In this document: positions 42,946 through 49,476 of the stretch, one piece after another
How the letters are laid out: each line of letters starts with the position of its first letter
How positions within the stretch are numbered: the stretch's first letter is position 1
Assembly (NCBI RefSeq): GCF_026184235.1
Contig: NZ_CP110806.1
Coordinates: 2,046,001 to 2,110,000, forward strand
Length of the DNA: 64,000 bases
DNA from: Cellulomonas sp. S1-8
GTDB taxonomy: Bacteria > Actinomycetota > Actinomycetes > Actinomycetales > Cellulomonadaceae
Direction of reading: 5' to 3'
Notes under the pieces: model-generated
Database searches by the model: none
Told to the model about the DNA's origin: nothing
Seen by the model: only the letters and a program-made list of their open reading frames with translations
Translations under genes and position numbers: made by a program

Positions 42946-44178
42946 CTAGGGCGCGTCGGGCGCGCGGGTCGCGGCGACCCGGTGGTCACCCAGCGTCGCC
43001 GCGAGCGACGCGACGTGCCCCACGACGATCACGGCCGGGTTGCGCACGCCGACCTCGCGGGCACGGGCCGCGATGTCCGCGACCGAGCCGACCGTCGTGC
43101 GCTGCGTCGTCAGGGTGCCGTCCTCGACGACCGCGACGGGCGTGGCCGGGTCGAGCCCGTGGGACGCCAGCAGGTCCATGTGCTCGCCCAGCCGGCCGAC
43201 GCCCATGAGCAGGACGAGGGTGCCCCGCAGGCGGGCCAGCGTCTCCCAGTCGGTGTCCGCGTCGTGGGCCGACACGATCGTCACCTGGCGGGCGACGTCC
43301 CGGTGGGTGACCGGGATCCCGGCGGCGCCCGGCACGCCGATCGCGCTGGTGACGCCGGGTACGACGTCGACGGCGACGCCCGCCGCGAGGCACGCGGCGA
43401 GCTCCTCCCCGCCGCGGCCCAGCACGAACGGGTCCCCGCCCTTGAGGCGGACGACCCGCTGGCCCGCGCGGGCGCGCTCGACCAGCAGACGGTTGATCTC
43501 GGTCTGCGTCAGGGTGTGCGCGTGCGGCGCCTTGCCGGCCTCGACGACCTCGACGTCGTCCTCGAGCTCGTCCAGCAGCGCGCGCGGCGCGAGACGGTCC
43601 ACGACGACGACGTCCGCCTCGGCGAGAGCACGCCGCCCACGGGTCGTGATGAGGCCCGGGTCGCCGGGCCCGCCGCCCACGAGCGTGACGTGCCCCGGGC
43701 CGGGCCGGTGCCGGCGCAGCGGCAGCGCGCCGGTGTCGAGCTGCACCTGGATCGCCGCGCGCAGGGCGACGGCCCGGCGGGGGTCGCCGCCCGCGCTGAC
43801 GGCCACCGTGACATCGCCCGCGCGGGCGACGGCGGGGGTCCAGGCCGTCGAGGCGGACGCGTCGTCGGCCCGCACGCACCACGTGCGCGCGGCGTCGGCG
43901 TCGGCCGCGACCGCGTCGTCGGTGCGCCGCTCACCGGTCGCGGTGTGCACCAGCCACGCGCCGTCGAGGTCGCCCGTCGCGTACTCCCGCGCGTCCCACG
44001 TGACGGCGCCGGACGCGGCGAGGTCTGCGAGGTCCTCGCACAGCGCCGGCGCGACGACGTGCACGGTCGCGCCGTCGGCGAGGAGCCCGTGCGCGCGGCG
44101 CGCGGCGACGGGACCACCACCCACCACGACGACCCGGCGGCCCGTCAGGTCGAGCAGCAGCGGGTGACGGGGACTCAT
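42946..44178 (-). CDS. cysG: Siroheme synthase-like protein: precorrin-2 dehydrogenase domain plus uroporphyrinogen-III C-methyltransferase
   Basis: A 410-residue fusion. N-terminal NAD(P)-binding domain (about 1-150; LTGRRVVVVGGGPVAARRAHGLL) oxidises precorrin-2 and may add iron; C-terminal SAM methyltransferase (about 165-405; VTLVGGGPGDPGLITTRGRRAL, RLKGGDPFVLGRGGEE) makes precorrin-2. It supplies siroheme to the sulfite reductase encoded upstream. The start overlaps the cysN stop (ATGA), so this is the last gene of the sulfate operon. Confidence 0.92.
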   Translation of the reverse strand: MSPRHPLLLDLTGRRVVVVGGGPVAARRAHGLLADGATVHVVAPALCEDLADLAASGAVTWDAREYATGDLDGAWLVHTATGERRTDDAVAADADAARTWCVRADDASASTAWTPAVARAGDVTVAVSAGGDPRRAVALRAAIQVQLDTGALPLRRHRPGPGHVTLVGGGPGDPGLITTRGRRALAEADVVVVDRLAPRALLDELEDDVEVVEAGKAPHAHTLTQTEINRLLVERARAGQRVVRLKGGDPFVLGRGGEELAACLAAGVAVDVVPGVTSAIGVPGAAGIPVTHRDVARQVTIVSAHDADTDWETLARLRGTLVLLMGVGRLGEHMDLLASHGLDPATPVAVVEDGTLTTQRTTVGSVADIAARAREVGVRNPAVIVVGHVASLAATLGDHRVAATRAPDAP

Positions 44179-45638
44179 ATCCCCGCCCCGGCGAGCCAGT
44201 CGTCGTCGCGCTCGTCGGCGCGCACCGGCACCAGGCGGTCCAGCAGCGTCGGACCGATCAGGCCGGCGGCCAGCGTGCTGCCGTCGGCCGGGTCGACCAC
44301 GAGGAACCCGCCCGTGCGGCGGTGCGTCGCGTAGTCGTCGAGCACGACGGGCTCGGCCAGGCGCAGCCGCACCCGACCGATCGCGTTGAGCCCGAGGGAG
44401 CGCGGCGCCGCCTCGGTGGACGTGTCCGTCGCGTCGATCGTGTGCAGCGTGTCGACCGGGTCCCACTGCTCGACGGTCAGGGTGTCGACGTCCAGGCGGG
44501 CGTCGACCTCGCGGAGCAGCCCGCGGACCGTCCGCGTCCCGACGCGCACCAGCACGCGGGCGCCCGGCACCGAGCGGCGCTCGGTCAGCCAGCAGACCGT
44601 CCCGACGAGGTCCTGCCCCGTCGCGACCTGCTCGGCGGCCGGCACCAGGACGTCGCCCCGCGCCACGTCGAGGTCGTCGGCGAGCCGCACGGTCACCGAC
44701 CGCGGCGCGTCGGCCGCGTCGAGCGGACCGTCGAACGTGTCCAGGCCCACGACGCGGCTCGTCCGGCCGGACGGCAGCACGCGCAGCTCGTCGCCCACGC
44801 GCACCACGCCCGAGGCGACCTTGCCCGCGTACCCGCGGTAGTCGGGGTGCTCGGGCGTGCGCGGACGGATGACGTACTGCACGGGCAGGCGCAGCGGCTC
44901 GGTCGACGCGTCGCGCGCCACCGGCACGCTCTCGAGCAGCTCGAGCAGGGTCGGGCCGTCGTACCAGGGGGTGCGCACGGAGCGGTCCACGACGTTGTCG
45001 CCGTCGAGCGCCGACAGCGGCACGGCGTGCACGGCCGGCAGGCCCAGCACCCGGGCGTAGTCGGCGAACTGCGCCGAGATCGACCGGAAGGTCGCCTCGT
45101 CGAACCCGATCAGGTCCATCTTGTTGACGGCCAGGACGACGTGCGGCACACCCAGCAGCGCGGTGAGCGCGGCGTGCCGCCGGGTCTGCTCGAGGACTCC
45201 CTTGCGCGCGTCGACCAGCACGATCGCGAGCTCCGCGGTCGACGCGCCGGTGACCATGTTGCGCGTGTACTGCACGTGCCCGGGGGTGTCGGCCAGCACG
45301 AACGCGCGGCGCGCGGTGGAGAAGTACCGGTACGCGACGTCGATCGTGATGCCCTGCTCGCGCTCGGCGCGCAGGCCGTCGGTGAGCAGCGCCAGGTCGA
45401 CGGCGCCGCCCTCGCCGCCGCGCGCGGCGGTCGCGCGCTCGACGGCGGAGAGCTGGTCGGCGAGGACCGACTTCGTGTCGTAGAGCAGCCGGCCGATGAG
45501 CGTGCTCTTGCCGTCGTCGACGGACCCCGCGGTCGCCAGGCGCAGCAGGTCGCGCTGCGCGTGGTCGTCGGCCCCGGCGGCGGCGCCGTCGAGCGACGGT
45601 GCGGGCCGGGTGAGGCCGGCGGTGGCGTGCGTGCCCAT
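44175..45638 (-). CDS. cysN: Sulfate adenylyltransferase subunit 1 (GTPase)
   Basis: A 487-residue EF-Tu-like GTPase that drives APS formation from sulfate and ATP with CysD. G1 GSVDDGKSTLIGRLL, G2 RAEREQGITIDVAYRYF, G3 DTPGHVQYT, G4 NKMD and G5 region are present, with two beta-barrel domains from about residue 230. There is no APS-kinase (CysC) fusion. The ATG shares one base with the cysD stop. Confidence 0.95.
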   Translation of the reverse strand: MGTHATAGLTRPAPSLDGAAAGADDHAQRDLLRLATAGSVDDGKSTLIGRLLYDTKSVLADQLSAVERATAARGGEGGAVDLALLTDGLRAEREQGITIDVAYRYFSTARRAFVLADTPGHVQYTRNMVTGASTAELAIVLVDARKGVLEQTRRHAALTALLGVPHVVLAVNKMDLIGFDEATFRSISAQFADYARVLGLPAVHAVPLSALDGDNVVDRSVRTPWYDGPTLLELLESVPVARDASTEPLRLPVQYVIRPRTPEHPDYRGYAGKVASGVVRVGDELRVLPSGRTSRVVGLDTFDGPLDAADAPRSVTVRLADDLDVARGDVLVPAAEQVATGQDLVGTVCWLTERRSVPGARVLVRVGTRTVRGLLREVDARLDVDTLTVEQWDPVDTLHTIDATDTSTEAAPRSLGLNAIGRVRLRLAEPVVLDDYATHRRTGGFLVVDPADGSTLAAGLIGPTLLDRLVPVRADERDDDWLAGAGI

Positions 45639-46582
45639 CAGAAGTACCCCTCGCGCTTGCGATCCTCCATGGCGGCCTCGGAGGCCCGGTCGTCGGCGCG
45701 GGTCGCACCACGCTCGGTGAGCCGGCTGGCGGCCACCTCGGCGATGACGTCCGCGACGTCGGCGGCCGTCGAGTCGACGGCCCCCGTGCAGCTCATGTCG
45801 CCGACCGTCCGGTAGCGCACGTGCCGACGCTCGACCGTCTCGTCGGCGCGCGGCCCGCCCCAGGTGCCGGCCGTGAGCCACATGCCGTCGCGGGCGAACA
45901 CGTCCCGATCGTGCGTGAAGTAGATGTCCGGCAGCTCGATGCCCTCGCGCTCGATGTACCGCCACACGTCGAGCTCGGTCCAGTTCGACAGCGGGAAGAC
46001 GCGGACGTGCTCACCGGGCTTGTGGCGGCCGTTGTACAGGTCCCACAGCTCGGGTCGCTGCCGGCGCGGGTCCCACTGCCCGAACTCGTCGCGCAGCGAG
46101 AACATCCGCTCCTTGGCCCGCGCCTTCTCCTCGTCGCGGCGTCCGCCGCCGAACACCGCGTCGAACCGGTGCGCCGTGATGCCGTCGAGCAGCGGCACGG
46201 TCTGCAGCGGGTTGCGGGAGCCGCCGGGGCGCTCGACGACGCGCCCGTCGTCGATCGCGTCCTGCACGCTGGCCACGACGAGCCGCAGGCCCAGGTCCGC
46301 GACCGTGCGGTCGCGGTACGCGATGACCTCGGGGAAGTTGTGCCCCGTGTCCACGTGCATGACCGGGAACGGCACGGGCGCCGGCCAGAACGCCTTGCGC
46401 GCCAGGTGCAGCATCACGATCGAGTCCTTGCCGCCGGAGAACAGCAGCACGGGACGCTCGAACTCGCCGGCGACCTCGCGCATCACGTGGATGCCCTCGG
46501 ACTCGAGCGCGTCGAGCTGGGTGAGCCGTCCCGCGGCGCCGGGGTCGGCGGTCGTGGTGTCGGTGGGGAACGTCGTCGTCAT
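45638..46582 (-). CDS. cysD: Sulfate adenylyltransferase subunit 2
   Basis: A 314-residue PP-loop enzyme that adenylates sulfate. LLFSGGKDSIVMLHLARKAF is the PP-loop, MHVDTGHNFPEVIAYRD follows, FGGGRRDEEKARAKER and FPLSNWTELDVWRYI are family runs, and DMSCTGAVDS is the C-terminal mark. ATGA overlap with cysH. ATG at 46582 chosen on the overlap; an upstream ATG in frame would extend into cysH. Confidence 0.95.
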   Translation of the reverse strand: MTTTFPTDTTTADPGAAGRLTQLDALESEGIHVMREVAGEFERPVLLFSGGKDSIVMLHLARKAFWPAPVPFPVMHVDTGHNFPEVIAYRDRTVADLGLRLVVASVQDAIDDGRVVERPGGSRNPLQTVPLLDGITAHRFDAVFGGGRRDEEKARAKERMFSLRDEFGQWDPRRQRPELWDLYNGRHKPGEHVRVFPLSNWTELDVWRYIEREGIELPDIYFTHDRDVFARDGMWLTAGTWGGPRADETVERRHVRYRTVGDMSCTGAVDSTAADVADVIAEVAASRLTERGATRADDRASEAAMEDRKREGYF

Positions 46583-47298
46583 GTGTGCAGCCCGCATTCC
46601 GTCTTGTTCGTGCCTGCCCAGCGCCCTGCTCGGGCGTCCTCGCCCGGTGCCACCGCCCGCGTGCACGGCGCGCAGCCGATCGACGCGTACCCGAGCTCGC
46701 GCAGCGGGTTGAGCACCACGTGGTGCGCGGTGACGTACGCGTCGACGTCGTCCTGGGTCCAGGTGGCCAGGGGGTTGAGCTTGACCTTGGACCGCTTGGC
46801 GTCCCACTGGACGACCGCGATGTCCGTGCGCGTCGGGGCGTCCTCGCGGCGCATGCCCGTGACCCACGCCGTGTACGGCGCGAGCCCCCGCTCGAGCGGC
46901 TCGACCTTGCGCAGCGCGCAGCACAGGTTCGGGTCGCGGTCGTGCAGCCGGGGGCCGTGCTCGGCGTCCTGCTCGGCGACGGTGCGCAGCGGCAGGACCG
47001 TCCGCAGCCGCACGTCGCTGAAGTCGGCGTAGTAGTCGCGCGTCCCGATGGTCTCGGCGAAGTGGTACCCGGTGTCGAGGAAGATCACGTCGATGCCGGG
47101 TGCCGCGCGTGCGGCGACGTCGACCAGCACCTCGTCGCCCATCGACGACGCGAGCACCAGGTCGTCACCGAAGACGTCGCGCGCCCAGCGCAGCACGTCG
47201 GACGGGTGCGCGCCCTCGAGGTCGCGGCCGGCCTGCTCGGCCAGCGCGCGCAGCTCGTCGGGGGACAGGTCGGTCACGGGGCGGGTCGCGGTGCTCAT
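46579..47298 (-). CDS. cysH: Phosphoadenylyl/adenylyl-sulfate reductase (APS-reductase type)
   Basis: A 239-residue thioredoxin-dependent enzyme reducing activated sulfate to sulfite. FLDTGYHFAETI and TWTQDDVDAY match the family. Two cysteine pairs, LCCALRKVEPL and GCAPCTRAV, would bind a [4Fe-4S] cluster, a feature of APS reductases (APS, not PAPS, as substrate); the absence of cysC in the operon agrees. The catalytic Cys is in TECGLHT at the C-terminus. ATGA overlaps at both ends. Confidence 0.94.
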   Translation of the reverse strand: MSTATRPVTDLSPDELRALAEQAGRDLEGAHPSDVLRWARDVFGDDLVLASSMGDEVLVDVAARAAPGIDVIFLDTGYHFAETIGTRDYYADFSDVRLRTVLPLRTVAEQDAEHGPRLHDRDPNLCCALRKVEPLERGLAPYTAWVTGMRREDAPTRTDIAVVQWDAKRSKVKLNPLATWTQDDVDAYVTAHHVVLNPLRELGYASIGCAPCTRAVAPGEDARAGRWAGTNKTECGLHT

Positions 47299-47456
47299 CG
47301 CGCACCCACCAGGCCGATGAAGCGCAGCGCGAACGCGCGGGTGCACGAGCGGCACTCCCACTGGCCGTGCGTCTCGCCCGCGGGCCACAGGTCCTCGCTC
47401 GCGCAGAAGGGGCAGTAGTACGGCACGGCACGCTGGGCGGGGTCCGTGGCGGTCAT
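47295..47456 (-). CDS. Small zinc-ribbon protein of the sulfite reductase operon
   Basis: A 53-residue protein with VPYYCPFCASEDLWPAGETHGQWECRSCTRAF, two CxxC pairs for one zinc. It is coupled to sirA and cysH by ATGA overlaps. A protein of this size and place recurs in actinobacterial cys operons; its role is unknown. It could be an accessory to siroheme enzyme maturation. Confidence 0.85.
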   Translation of the reverse strand: MTATDPAQRAVPYYCPFCASEDLWPAGETHGQWECRSCTRAFALRFIGLVGAR

Positions 47457-49123
47457 CGCAGGTCCTCCTCGGCGGCGCGCAGCGCCCACTGGGCGAACAG
47501 CTCGCCCTCGGCGCGCTGCTCGTCGAACCGGGTGACGACCCGCTCGACGTAGTCCGGCAGGTCGGACGACGGCACGCGCAGCCCGCGCAGCGTCTTGCCG
47601 AGCCCGCTGGTCATGCCCAGACCACCGCCGAGGTGCACCTGGTAGCCCTCCTCCTCGCCGGCCAGCACGCCCTTGAGGCCGATGTCGGCGGTCTGGATGC
47701 GGGCGCACGAGTTGGGGCAGCCGTTGACGTTGATGGTGATCGGCTGGTCGAAGGTCGGCAGCCGCCGCTCCAGCTCGCCGATGAGCACGGTCGCGCGGCC
47801 CTTGGTCTCGACGATCGCGAGCTTGCAGAACTCGATGCCGGTGCACGCCATCGTCCCGCGGCGGAACTGGCTCGCGTGCCGCACCTGCAGCCCCAGGGAG
47901 TCCAGGCCGTCGACGAGGGCGTCGACCCGGTCGGCGGCGACGTCGAGGACGACGAGCTTCTGCTCGGTGGTCAGCTGCAGCCGGTCGGAGCCGGCCTCCT
48001 CGACGAGGTCGGCCAGGGCCGTGAGCAGCGGGCCGGACACGCGCCCGACTGTCGGCGCGGCGCCTACGTAGAACTGCCCGTCCTTCTGGGGGTGCACGCC
48101 GACGTGGTCGCGGTTGCCGGTGGGCGGCGGCGGGGGCTCGGGGCCGTCGGGCAGCGCGTACCCCAGGTACTCGGTCTCGAGGACCTGGCGGAACACGACC
48201 GTTCCCCAGTCGGCCAGCAGGAACTTCAGGCGGGCGCGCGTGCGCAGCCGGCGGTAGCCGTAGTCGCGGAAGATCCCGACGACGCCCGCCCACACCTCGG
48301 GCACGCGCTCGAGCGTCACGAACGCGCCGAGCCGCTTGCCGAGCATCGGGTTGGTGGACAGCGCGCCACCGACCCACAGGTCGAAGCCGGGGCCGAGCTC
48401 GGGGTGCACGACGCCGACGAACGCGACGTCGTTGATCTCGTGGGCGACGTCGTGATGGGGCGACCCGCTGATCGCGGTCTTGAACTTGCGGGGAAGGTTG
48501 GAGTACGCGGGGTCGCCGATGTACCGGTCGCGGATGATCTGGATCGCGGGGGTGCCGTCGATGATCTCGTCGGCCGCGACTCCCGCCACCGGGGAGCCGA
48601 TGATGACGCGCGGCACGTCGCCGCAGGCCTCCTGCGTCGTCAGGCCGACCGACTCCAGCCGGCGCCAGATCTCCGGGACGTCCTCGATGCGGATCCAGTG
48701 CAGCTGGATGTTCTGCCGGTCGGTGATGTCGGCGGTGCCGCGCCCGAACTCCTGGGAGATGCCGGCGACGGTGCGCAGCTGCTGCAGCGTCAGCGTGCCG
48801 CCGTCGCACCGCACCCGCAGCATGAAGAACTCGTCGTCGAGCTCGTGCGGCTCGAGGGTCGCGGTCTTGCCGCCGTCGATGCCGGGCCGACGCTGCGTGT
48901 AGAGCCCCCACCAGCGCATCCGTCCGCGCAGGTCCTCGCCGGGGATGGACGCGAAGCCCTCGTGGGCGTAGATCGTCTCGATGCGCGCGCGGACGTTCAG
49001 CCCGTCGTCCTCCTGCTTGAGCTTCTCGTTGGCGTTGAGCGGCTCGCGCTGGTCGAAGGCCCACTGGCCTTCGGGACGTCTGGACGGTTCGACGATCGGG
49101 GTGCGGGACGTGGTCTGCGCCAT
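47453..49123 (-). CDS. sirA: Nitrite/sulfite reductase (assimilatory, ferredoxin-type)
   Basis: A 556-residue siroheme/[4Fe-4S] enzyme reducing sulfite to sulfide. Two half-domains: GGTLTLQQLRTVAGISQEFG, TDRQNIQLHWI in the first, and the cluster motif RGTMACTGIEFCKLAIVETK with NVNGCPNSCARIQ in the second (CxxxxxC, CxxxC). GGAGGT is seven bases before ATG 49123. First gene of sirA-zinc ribbon-cysH-cysD-cysN-cysG. Preceded by a polycysteine sORF and nested hairpins. Confidence 0.94.
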   Translation of the reverse strand: MAQTTSRTPIVEPSRRPEGQWAFDQREPLNANEKLKQEDDGLNVRARIETIYAHEGFASIPGEDLRGRMRWWGLYTQRRPGIDGGKTATLEPHELDDEFFMLRVRCDGGTLTLQQLRTVAGISQEFGRGTADITDRQNIQLHWIRIEDVPEIWRRLESVGLTTQEACGDVPRVIIGSPVAGVAADEIIDGTPAIQIIRDRYIGDPAYSNLPRKFKTAISGSPHHDVAHEINDVAFVGVVHPELGPGFDLWVGGALSTNPMLGKRLGAFVTLERVPEVWAGVVGIFRDYGYRRLRTRARLKFLLADWGTVVFRQVLETEYLGYALPDGPEPPPPPTGNRDHVGVHPQKDGQFYVGAAPTVGRVSGPLLTALADLVEEAGSDRLQLTTEQKLVVLDVAADRVDALVDGLDSLGLQVRHASQFRRGTMACTGIEFCKLAIVETKGRATVLIGELERRLPTFDQPITINVNGCPNSCARIQTADIGLKGVLAGEEEGYQVHLGGGLGMTSGLGKTLRGLRVPSSDLPDYVERVVTRFDEQRAEGELFAQWALRAAEEDLR

Positions 49124-49160
49124 GGGCGCCACCTCCGGGTGCTGGGGGGCGTGCTCACGC

Positions 49161-49201
49161 GTCCGCGCACGACCTGCGGGTCGTGGGTACCGGGCGCGGA
49201 C
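49161..49201 (-). promoter_or_regulatory. Nested stem-loops in the sirA leader
   Basis: Outer arms 49161-49167 and 49195-49201 (GTCCGCG/CGCGGAC) enclose a perfect 7-bp hairpin 49168-49174/49179-49185 (CACGACC/GGTCGTG, 4-base loop). They lie between the polycysteine sORF and the sirA ribosome site, where they could sequester or expose it or stop transcription. Confidence 0.6.
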
Positions 49202-49228
49202 CACGCGCCCGTGGGGGGACGGGGCGGG

Positions 49229-49288
49229 TCAGCGGTTCCGCGGACAGCAGGCACACGGGACCGCGGCGGCGCGACAGCACCGACACAT
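49229..49288 (-). CDS. Polycysteine leader sORF upstream of sirA
   Basis: A 19-residue ORF, MCRCCRAAAVPCACCPRNR, with six cysteine codons, ending 105 bases before the sirA start. It fits the polycysteine leader ORFs that act as cysteine-responsive attenuators of sirA operons in mycobacteria. An in-frame GTG at 49312 would extend it by 8 codons. Neither start has a clear ribosome site or a leaderless promoter box, so the exact start is uncertain. Confidence 0.65.
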   Translation of the reverse strand: MCRCCRAAAVPCACCPRNR

Positions 49289-49476
49289 CCAGCGGTTCCC
49301 GGGGAGGCTCACGAGACGAGGGTGGCACGCGCTCGGTCGCACCGGCAGGTGTCGTCCGGATCGCGAGACGGGTGTTCGAGGTGTGGACAGGCGTCCAGGA
49401 CCCGGGCGGACGTCCGGGTCGGGGCCGCGCGTCCGCCCCGCGCACCGCCCGGTCGTGGGACGTATCGTCGTCCTCC

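Follow-up and report, generated by a model that had tools for sequence, protein, structure and literature searches.

The window analysed here is a stretch of 64,000 nucleotides from Cellulomonas sp. S1-8 (contig NZ_CP110806.1, positions 2,046,001 to 2,110,000), and its subject is the leader of sirA, a candidate cysteine-responsive attenuator on the minus strand. A short cysteine-rich upstream open reading frame (uORF) precedes the ATG of sirA (49123). Between the two lie a C-rich linker, several complementary RNA elements and the sirA ribosome site, and four further genes of the sulfate-assimilation group follow downstream (Table 1). The sirA product is recognised by its Pfam domains; all of its matches to NCBIfam fall below the cut-offs.

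The uORF, its start and its promoter

The first-pass annotation of this DNA described a 19-codon frame with six cysteine codons at 49229-49288, encoding the peptide MCRCCRAAAVPCACCPRNR before its stop, and placed that stop 105 bases ahead of the sirA ATG. Both the frame and the distance are present as described. The choice of the inner ATG as the start codon, however, is not borne out, since the reading frame continues upstream as far as a GTG at 49312, a start that is kept in relatives. The hexamer CACCCT stands six bases before the GTG, which overturns the earlier view that no box precedes the frame and that it may not be leaderless; the box had been missed because the inner ATG was taken as the start. 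No Shine-Dalgarno site is found in the sequence before the GTG.

Relatives of the sirA locus were collected in two sets. The first, from named genome contigs, comprises 80 loci, 8 from Cellulomonas and 72 others that served as controls; these controls are mostly from Streptomyces, and 2 of the 72 lack enough upstream DNA for the uORF comparison, which leaves 70. The second set covers 200 genomes of the family, of which 173 gave a match at E ≤0.001, not all of them SirA; from it, 30 returned loci and 60 further stretches, a subset of the long matches, were inspected. We distinguish 46 near leaders, of which 39 belong to Cellulomonas or the same genus and 7 to a single sister genus, and 45 more divergent sirA loci (L126-L170), 4 of them within the genus and 41 outside it. 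Six records (L090, L092, L110, L113, L114 and L125), each with a uORF peptide identical to that of a kept record, were removed by eye ahead of the counts. L118 (genome G185) was dropped as well, since its stretch does not lie on the leader side of the gene. L121, whose open reading frame (ORF) exceeds the length limit, was left out of the codon and swap counts, so that these rest on 45 near leaders. Where two box-start candidates were present, in L115 and L120, the 24- and 27-codon ones were taken. Clades of leaders were set by eye, and the permutation and Fisher figures given below ignore relatedness.

The layout of the start is common to the near leaders. In 45 of the 46, a box of the form xANNCT (A at position 2, CT at 5-6) stands before the GTG or ATG that opens the polycysteine frame, 6 nt away in 43 and 7 nt away in 2; in L121, the 46th, such a box precedes a 58-codon frame, again at 6 nt. 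The start codon is GTG in 43 of the 45 and ATG in the other 2. Farther upstream, a motif whose consensus TCTCRNNATNCGGA was composed by eye from the near leaders is best matched at -56 in 43 of them and at -57 in the remaining two, which are exactly the two with 7-nt box spacing, L089 and L120. The consensus is matched perfectly in 29 leaders; 10 leaders depart from it at one base, 4 at two bases, 1 at three and 1 at four. A best match with at most two mismatches occurs anywhere within 250 nt in 14 of 69 mostly Streptomyces control loci, and anywhere within 300 nt in 16 of the 45 more divergent family loci. That box and motif keep a constant distance speaks for a genuine promoter, equipped with an activator site, from which transcription starts at the GTG. 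From its sequence and position, 49355-49368 looks like the site of a putative activator of sulfate assimilation, and the sirA uORF is most likely leaderless, as in mycobacteria. The 4.5-Mb genome holds two matches to TCTCRNNATNCGGA; the sole other one lies at G000:C1:545481-545494, where no sulfur gene was recognised alongside, judged from translated frames only.

The same layout extends beyond the near leaders. A short ORF with at least three cysteines in its last 12 codons precedes sirA in 29 of the 45 more divergent loci, and in 27 of them a polycysteine uORF has the leaderless arrangement ([TC]ANNNT 6-7 nt before the start), although some of these are weak (L129, L137, L165). The corresponding counts in the mostly Streptomyces controls are 1 of 70 and 0 of 70. 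Under these strict criteria the near leaders themselves score 40 of 46 for late cysteines and 33 with the box added; the shortfall comes from leaders with a G-initial box, with fewer late cysteine codons or with a longer ORF.

How often such a frame would arise by chance was estimated from Markov sequences of the composition of the window (64 kb, both strands, 30 replicates). ORFs of at most 35 amino acids with at least six cysteines are expected 0.13 times per 64 kb, and the real window has one, the sirA uORF. The leaderless signature combined with at least five cysteines occurs in none of the 30 replicates and once in the real window, again at the sirA uORF. Looser ORFs with at least five cysteines number 7 in the window against 0.47 expected, so that cysteine count alone is weak evidence; by sequence comparison, it is conservation and not cysteine count that decides that the sirA uORF is real. 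The first-pass annotation had also pointed to a 10-bp repeat around the uORF. Its copies are spaced exactly 60 bases apart as stated, but both are present in only 1 of 45 leaders, that of the window itself, and the repeat is therefore regarded as incidental.

Table 1. Features of the sirA leader and operon in the window, and the second uORF of the same genome
Feature	Position	Strand	Basis or remark
Promoter motif TCTCGCGATCCGGA, putative activator site	49355..49368	minus	Starts 56 nt before uORF GTG
-10-like box CACCCT	49319..49324	minus	6 nt before uORF GTG
Polycysteine uORF	49229..49312	minus	GTG start, 27 codons + TGA, six Cys, VSLPGNRWMCRCCRAAAVPCACCPRNR; presumably leaderless
Cys cluster 1 (TGT CGG TGC TGT)	49274..49285	minus	Sequence; codon table of 12 near leaders
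uORF hairpin 5' arm CCGCGG	49261..49266	minus	Loop contains Cys cluster 2; swap test
Cys cluster 2 (TGT GCC TGC TGT)	49244..49255	minus	5-8 codons before uORF stop
uORF hairpin 3' arm CCGCGG	49238..49243	minus	Swap test
C-rich linker after uORF stop	49211..49228	minus	Composition of 32 representative leaders
Element A GGGCGCGTGGTCCGCGCCC, strongly conserved	49192..49210	minus	Alignments; A:B swap test
Hairpin P2 CACGACC...GGTCGTG	49168..49185	minus	Species-specific stems; swap test
Element B, partner of A	49149..49168	minus	Swap test
Shine-Dalgarno site GGAGG of sirA	49132..49136	minus	Sequence
sirA/nirA-type sulfite (nitrite) reductase	47453..49123	minus	Pfam NIR_SIR, NIR_SIR_ferr above cut-off
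cysH, (phospho)adenylylsulfate reductase	46579..47307	minus	NF002537 above cut-off
cysD	45638..46603	minus	TIGR02039 above cut-off
cysN	44175..45629	minus	TIGR02034 above cut-off
Siroheme synthase-like (cysG N-terminal + uroporphyrinogen methyltransferase domains)	42946..44178	minus	TIGR01469, TIGR01470 above cut-off
cysK-cysE uORF	L172, reverse-complement positions 1212-1286; G000:C1 near 1688400	minus	Shine-Dalgarno-led

Conservation and choice of the cysteine codons

Each of the 45 uORFs contains 4-8 cysteines, and together these account for 287 of 1293 codons (22%), compared with 36 of 4255 (0.85%) in eight ORFs of the window. The cysteines usually fall into two clusters, one roughly 14-24 codons and the other 5-9 codons upstream of the stop. 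Lack of conservation of the cysteine codons, which the first-pass annotation had named as grounds for abandoning its reading, is not what the relatives show: codon -5 is cysteine in all 45 leaders and codon -6 in 42 of them. The synonymous change it had expected at these codons is seen weakly, with TGT in 6 and TGC in 6 at codon -8 and TGC in 17 and TGT in 2 at codon -9.

The high cysteine content might suggest that the uORF encodes a functional cysteine-rich peptide, for example a metal-binding one. The uORFs, however, range from 24 to 43 codons with differing N-termini, and little is kept besides the cysteines and an arginine at codon -3 (43/45). Among the 12 nearest leaders, variation is greater at the first two codon positions (9 variable sites each) than at the third (5), so that selection seems to act on cysteine content and RNA and not on a peptide, and we find the functional-peptide explanation scarcely credible.

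The choice among the cysteine codons is also unusual. TGT makes up 129 of the 287 cysteine codons in the sirA uORFs versus 0 of 222 in the sirA genes themselves (35 loci; Fisher p about 5e-40, relatedness ignored); the eight window ORFs use it once among 36 cysteine codons. The more divergent leaders have it at 78 of 126 cysteine codons, and the cysK uORFs described below at 76 of 102, a figure for which no same-genome baseline was counted. TGT occupies codon -5 in 42 of 45 leaders, where it adjoins the 3' arm of the uORF hairpin. The bias may serve stalling or, given that placement, RNA structure only.

These observations also bear on the possibility that control is purely transcriptional, acting through the -56 site, with the uORF as a bystander or a translation enhancer. 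The motif is in register with the box in all 45 leaders, which favours such control, but the conservation of the cysteines, the TGT bias and a second polycysteine uORF with a different start layout at cysK would then be left unexplained. We regard transcription-only control as very unlikely.

Structure of the leader and how it may be read

Complementary stems reported earlier within 49161-49201 are present: 49201-49194 can pair with 49168-49161, enclosing 49185-49179 with 49174-49168, and the outer and inner stems share base 49168. Helices were assessed by a swap test in which arms were exchanged between species and own pairing was compared with swapped pairing (2000 permutations, 45 leaders, with a simpler split than that of the P2 parse below). 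For P2, none of the 2000 permutations was as good and own pairing was better in 40 of 45 leaders. The corresponding values for A:B are 1/2000 and 30/45 (4/2000 and 19/32 on 32 representatives), and for the uORF hairpin (U5:U3) 0/2000 and 32/45 (0/2000 and 23/32). Co-variation of stem bases, which the first-pass annotation had said would favour its reading, is thus found in three helices, P2, A:B and the uORF hairpin. The complementary stems of P2 differ between species at a constant location. Among the 35 leaders that could be parsed for P2 (the A pattern could not be matched in 3 others and the B pattern in 7, and a number of B starts were placed wrongly), the stem is matched by at most 5% of shuffles in 19 (median 0.05). 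Element A has three alternatives, namely folding on itself, pairing with B and pairing with sirA codons 2-6.

Candidate pairings of the uORF start, the cysteine tract, the C-rich linker or sirA codons 2-6 were rejected, having no clear co-variation in swap tests; the least firmly rejected were the cysteine tract with B (84/2000) and the uORF start with A (71/2000). Rfam gave no gathering-score match in the window and none at E up to 5 in 49050-49450.

Based on the uORF, its start layout, the conservation of its cysteines, the TGT bias, the co-varying helices and the second uORF, we consider it probable (about 0.82) that the sirA leader works as a cysteine-responsive, ribosome-mediated attenuator. 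RNA polymerase would start at GTG 49312, as the position of the box suggests, so that the mRNA would begin with the uORF, which would be translated by leaderless initiation. With ample Cys-tRNA, the ribosome would pass both cysteine clusters, the leader would refold, and sirA and the following genes would be kept low. With scarce Cys-tRNA, it would stall on the clusters and open the cluster-2 hairpin, and the leader, through whichever helix acts as the switch, would turn permissive.

Several results weigh against this reading. The first-pass annotation proposed that stalling exposes the sirA ribosome site, and computation does not support this: in a folding model in which a ribosome-sized block masks the cysteine codons and is compared with a terminating ribosome, no consistent effect is seen across 45 leaders. 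Masking cluster 2 changes the cost of opening the sirA start by a mean of +0.06 kcal/mol (easier by at least 1 in 8 leaders, harder in 10). For cluster 1 the mean is -0.39 kcal/mol, with opening easier in 13 leaders and harder in 5, and in the leader of the window the effect runs from -2.0 to +1.5 depending on the codon masked. In the swap test, neither pairing between parts of the uORF and the sirA ribosome site nor pairing of that site with sirA codons 2-6 is clearly supported, and pairing of the cysteine tract with B is weak (84/2000). RNAalifold applied to two clades favours the A self-hairpin, with 0 of 13 pairs (A1) and 4 of 25 (A2) changed on both sides. Finally, substitutions in the uORF are not coding-like. 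Ribosome-stalling thermodynamics was set aside, the effect being inconsistent across leaders.

A C-rich, G-poor linker directly follows the uORF stop, a possible Rho site or spacer. In 32 representative leaders it is 17-23 nt long with on average 70% C and 11% G, and 29 of the 32 have at least 60% C. The attenuator might act through Rho, the linker being the loading site and the position of the ribosome on the uORF deciding termination before sirA. The composition fits Rho loading, and no U-run of an intrinsic terminator is visible on reading 49124-49228, over which a terminator scanner was not run. Twenty nucleotides is short for a Rho site, however, and three linkers are lower in C (0.39, 0.42 and 0.56). 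By geometry, and assuming a typical ribosome footprint, stalling 5-8 codons ahead of the stop would leave the linker bare and thus increase termination on starvation, which is the wrong direction unless another element intervenes. Passages of a 2005 survey proposed Rho for the cys leaders of Mycobacterium and Propionibacterium acnes and for cbs of Bifidobacterium longum, terming the site prediction rather weak (PMC1262725). On balance we hold Rho-dependent termination here to be rather unlikely.

A translational switch is possible if doubtful; in it, A would have sirA codons 2-6 as its partner when expression is off and B when expression is on. Element A is strongly conserved and, by eye, complementary to codons 2-5 over 10 bases in many relatives (12/13 in the window). 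The A:codon pairing, however, lacks clear co-variation (116/2000 permutations, own better in 19/42), and a ribosome reading the uORF would probably not cover A, since the linker lies between. Both the Rho and the A:codon proposals are versions of the ribosome-read attenuator and do not exclude it.

A second uORF and comparison with known systems

The cysK-cysE genes of the same genome (TIGR01139, TIGR01172 and NF041874 above cut-off) are preceded by a 24-codon polycysteine ORF, MRVPTAAVAPVPRACVACTCCRCR, with its own Shine-Dalgarno-like site. In a search of 60 genomes, 27 of 30 cysK loci of the genus have a uORF that ends in CCRC and whose start follows a Shine-Dalgarno-like stretch; the scan picked an inner GTG in some rows, with cysteine counts unaffected, and accepted GAGA as Shine-Dalgarno-like. 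Polycysteine uORFs thus stand before several cysteine loci, sirA and cysK-cysE, the latter with a conventional ribosome site. The three cysK loci without a uORF are L191 (near a contig end), L199 and L206. For the genomes of the last two (G188 and G191), no full-length sirA was found in the family search either; from these sequences a joint loss of the cysK uORF and sirA is possible, with n=2 and 7 of the 30 genomes not searched for sirA. At 16 other loci of the Cellulomonas sp. S1-8 genome (5 PALP, 8 PF01053 and 3 PF01406), nothing comparable was found upstream of the matched gene, the only coding-strand upstream match being a 19-codon ORF at L214, itself a weak match, with 3 scattered cysteines and neither start signature. 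The sulfate transporter model TIGR00968 gave no match above cut-off, and the uORF scan did not extend to the four loci that it returned.

The cysK-cysE operon would read the same signal separately through its Shine-Dalgarno-led uORF, giving a small set of cysteine-controlled operons. We tentatively propose a ribosome-read cysteine regulon of the Cellulomonas family that spans at least two operons and combines leaderless with Shine-Dalgarno-led sensors. In these, UGU, near-unused in the ordinary genes sampled, would have been enriched by selection for stalling sensitivity, and at sirA the system would lie atop the -56 activator site. Sulfate assimilation and cysteine synthesis operons would then answer one signal without a shared promoter motif. 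The codon-choice idea is testable, as UGU is absent from the 222 sirA cysteine codons of 35 loci and makes up 45-75% of those in the sensing uORFs.

In E. coli leuL, rare synonymous codons are found among the sensing codons. The sirA leader resembles such trpL/leuL-type proteobacterial attenuators in having sensing codons within a leader ORF and rare synonymous codons among them; unlike them, it has no intrinsic terminator and a presumably leaderless mode of initiation. Canestrari et al. (2020, Mol Microbiol 114:93) reportedly described polycysteine attenuators in mycobacteria that are leaderless short ORFs. The identification of our leader as one of the mycobacterial sort, made in the first-pass annotation, is supported by its layout and by the conservation of its cysteines. 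The sequence has a short ORF with clustered cysteines, a box 6-7 nt upstream with no Shine-Dalgarno site, and cysteine codons that are conserved; by the features that can be tested in sequence, relief of the ribosome site excepted, its membership of this kind is well supported.

Mycobacterial polycysteine attenuators are described in passages of PMC9031893 and PMC13236596 and cited in one of PMC9094748, and background was also drawn from parts of PMC8079986 and PMC11133741. The sirA leader shares with them the leaderless layout, the polycysteine uORF, a sulfur operon downstream and a structured region before the ribosome site. It differs in belonging to another family, in its box, which in the nearest leaders is mostly CANNCT and not TANNNT, although TANNNT is found in most of the more divergent ones, and in the Shine-Dalgarno-led second target, cysK-cysE. 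Passages of PMC1262725 predict cys leader peptides in Mycobacterium spp., P. acnes (cys operon) and B. longum (cbs), and make no mention of Cellulomonas; in our literature search on polycysteine leaders, Cellulomonas was named only in papers on other subjects. Like the leaders in those passages, the Cellulomonas leaders lie before cys operons, include a short ORF with runs of cysteine codons close to its stop and have no classical terminator, but they contain co-varying helices that are not terminators. The second target, the codon bias and the co-varying helices are additions to the known kind, and a mode of control established in mycobacteria would hereby be extended to the Cellulomonas family, with enough species for leaders to be compared.
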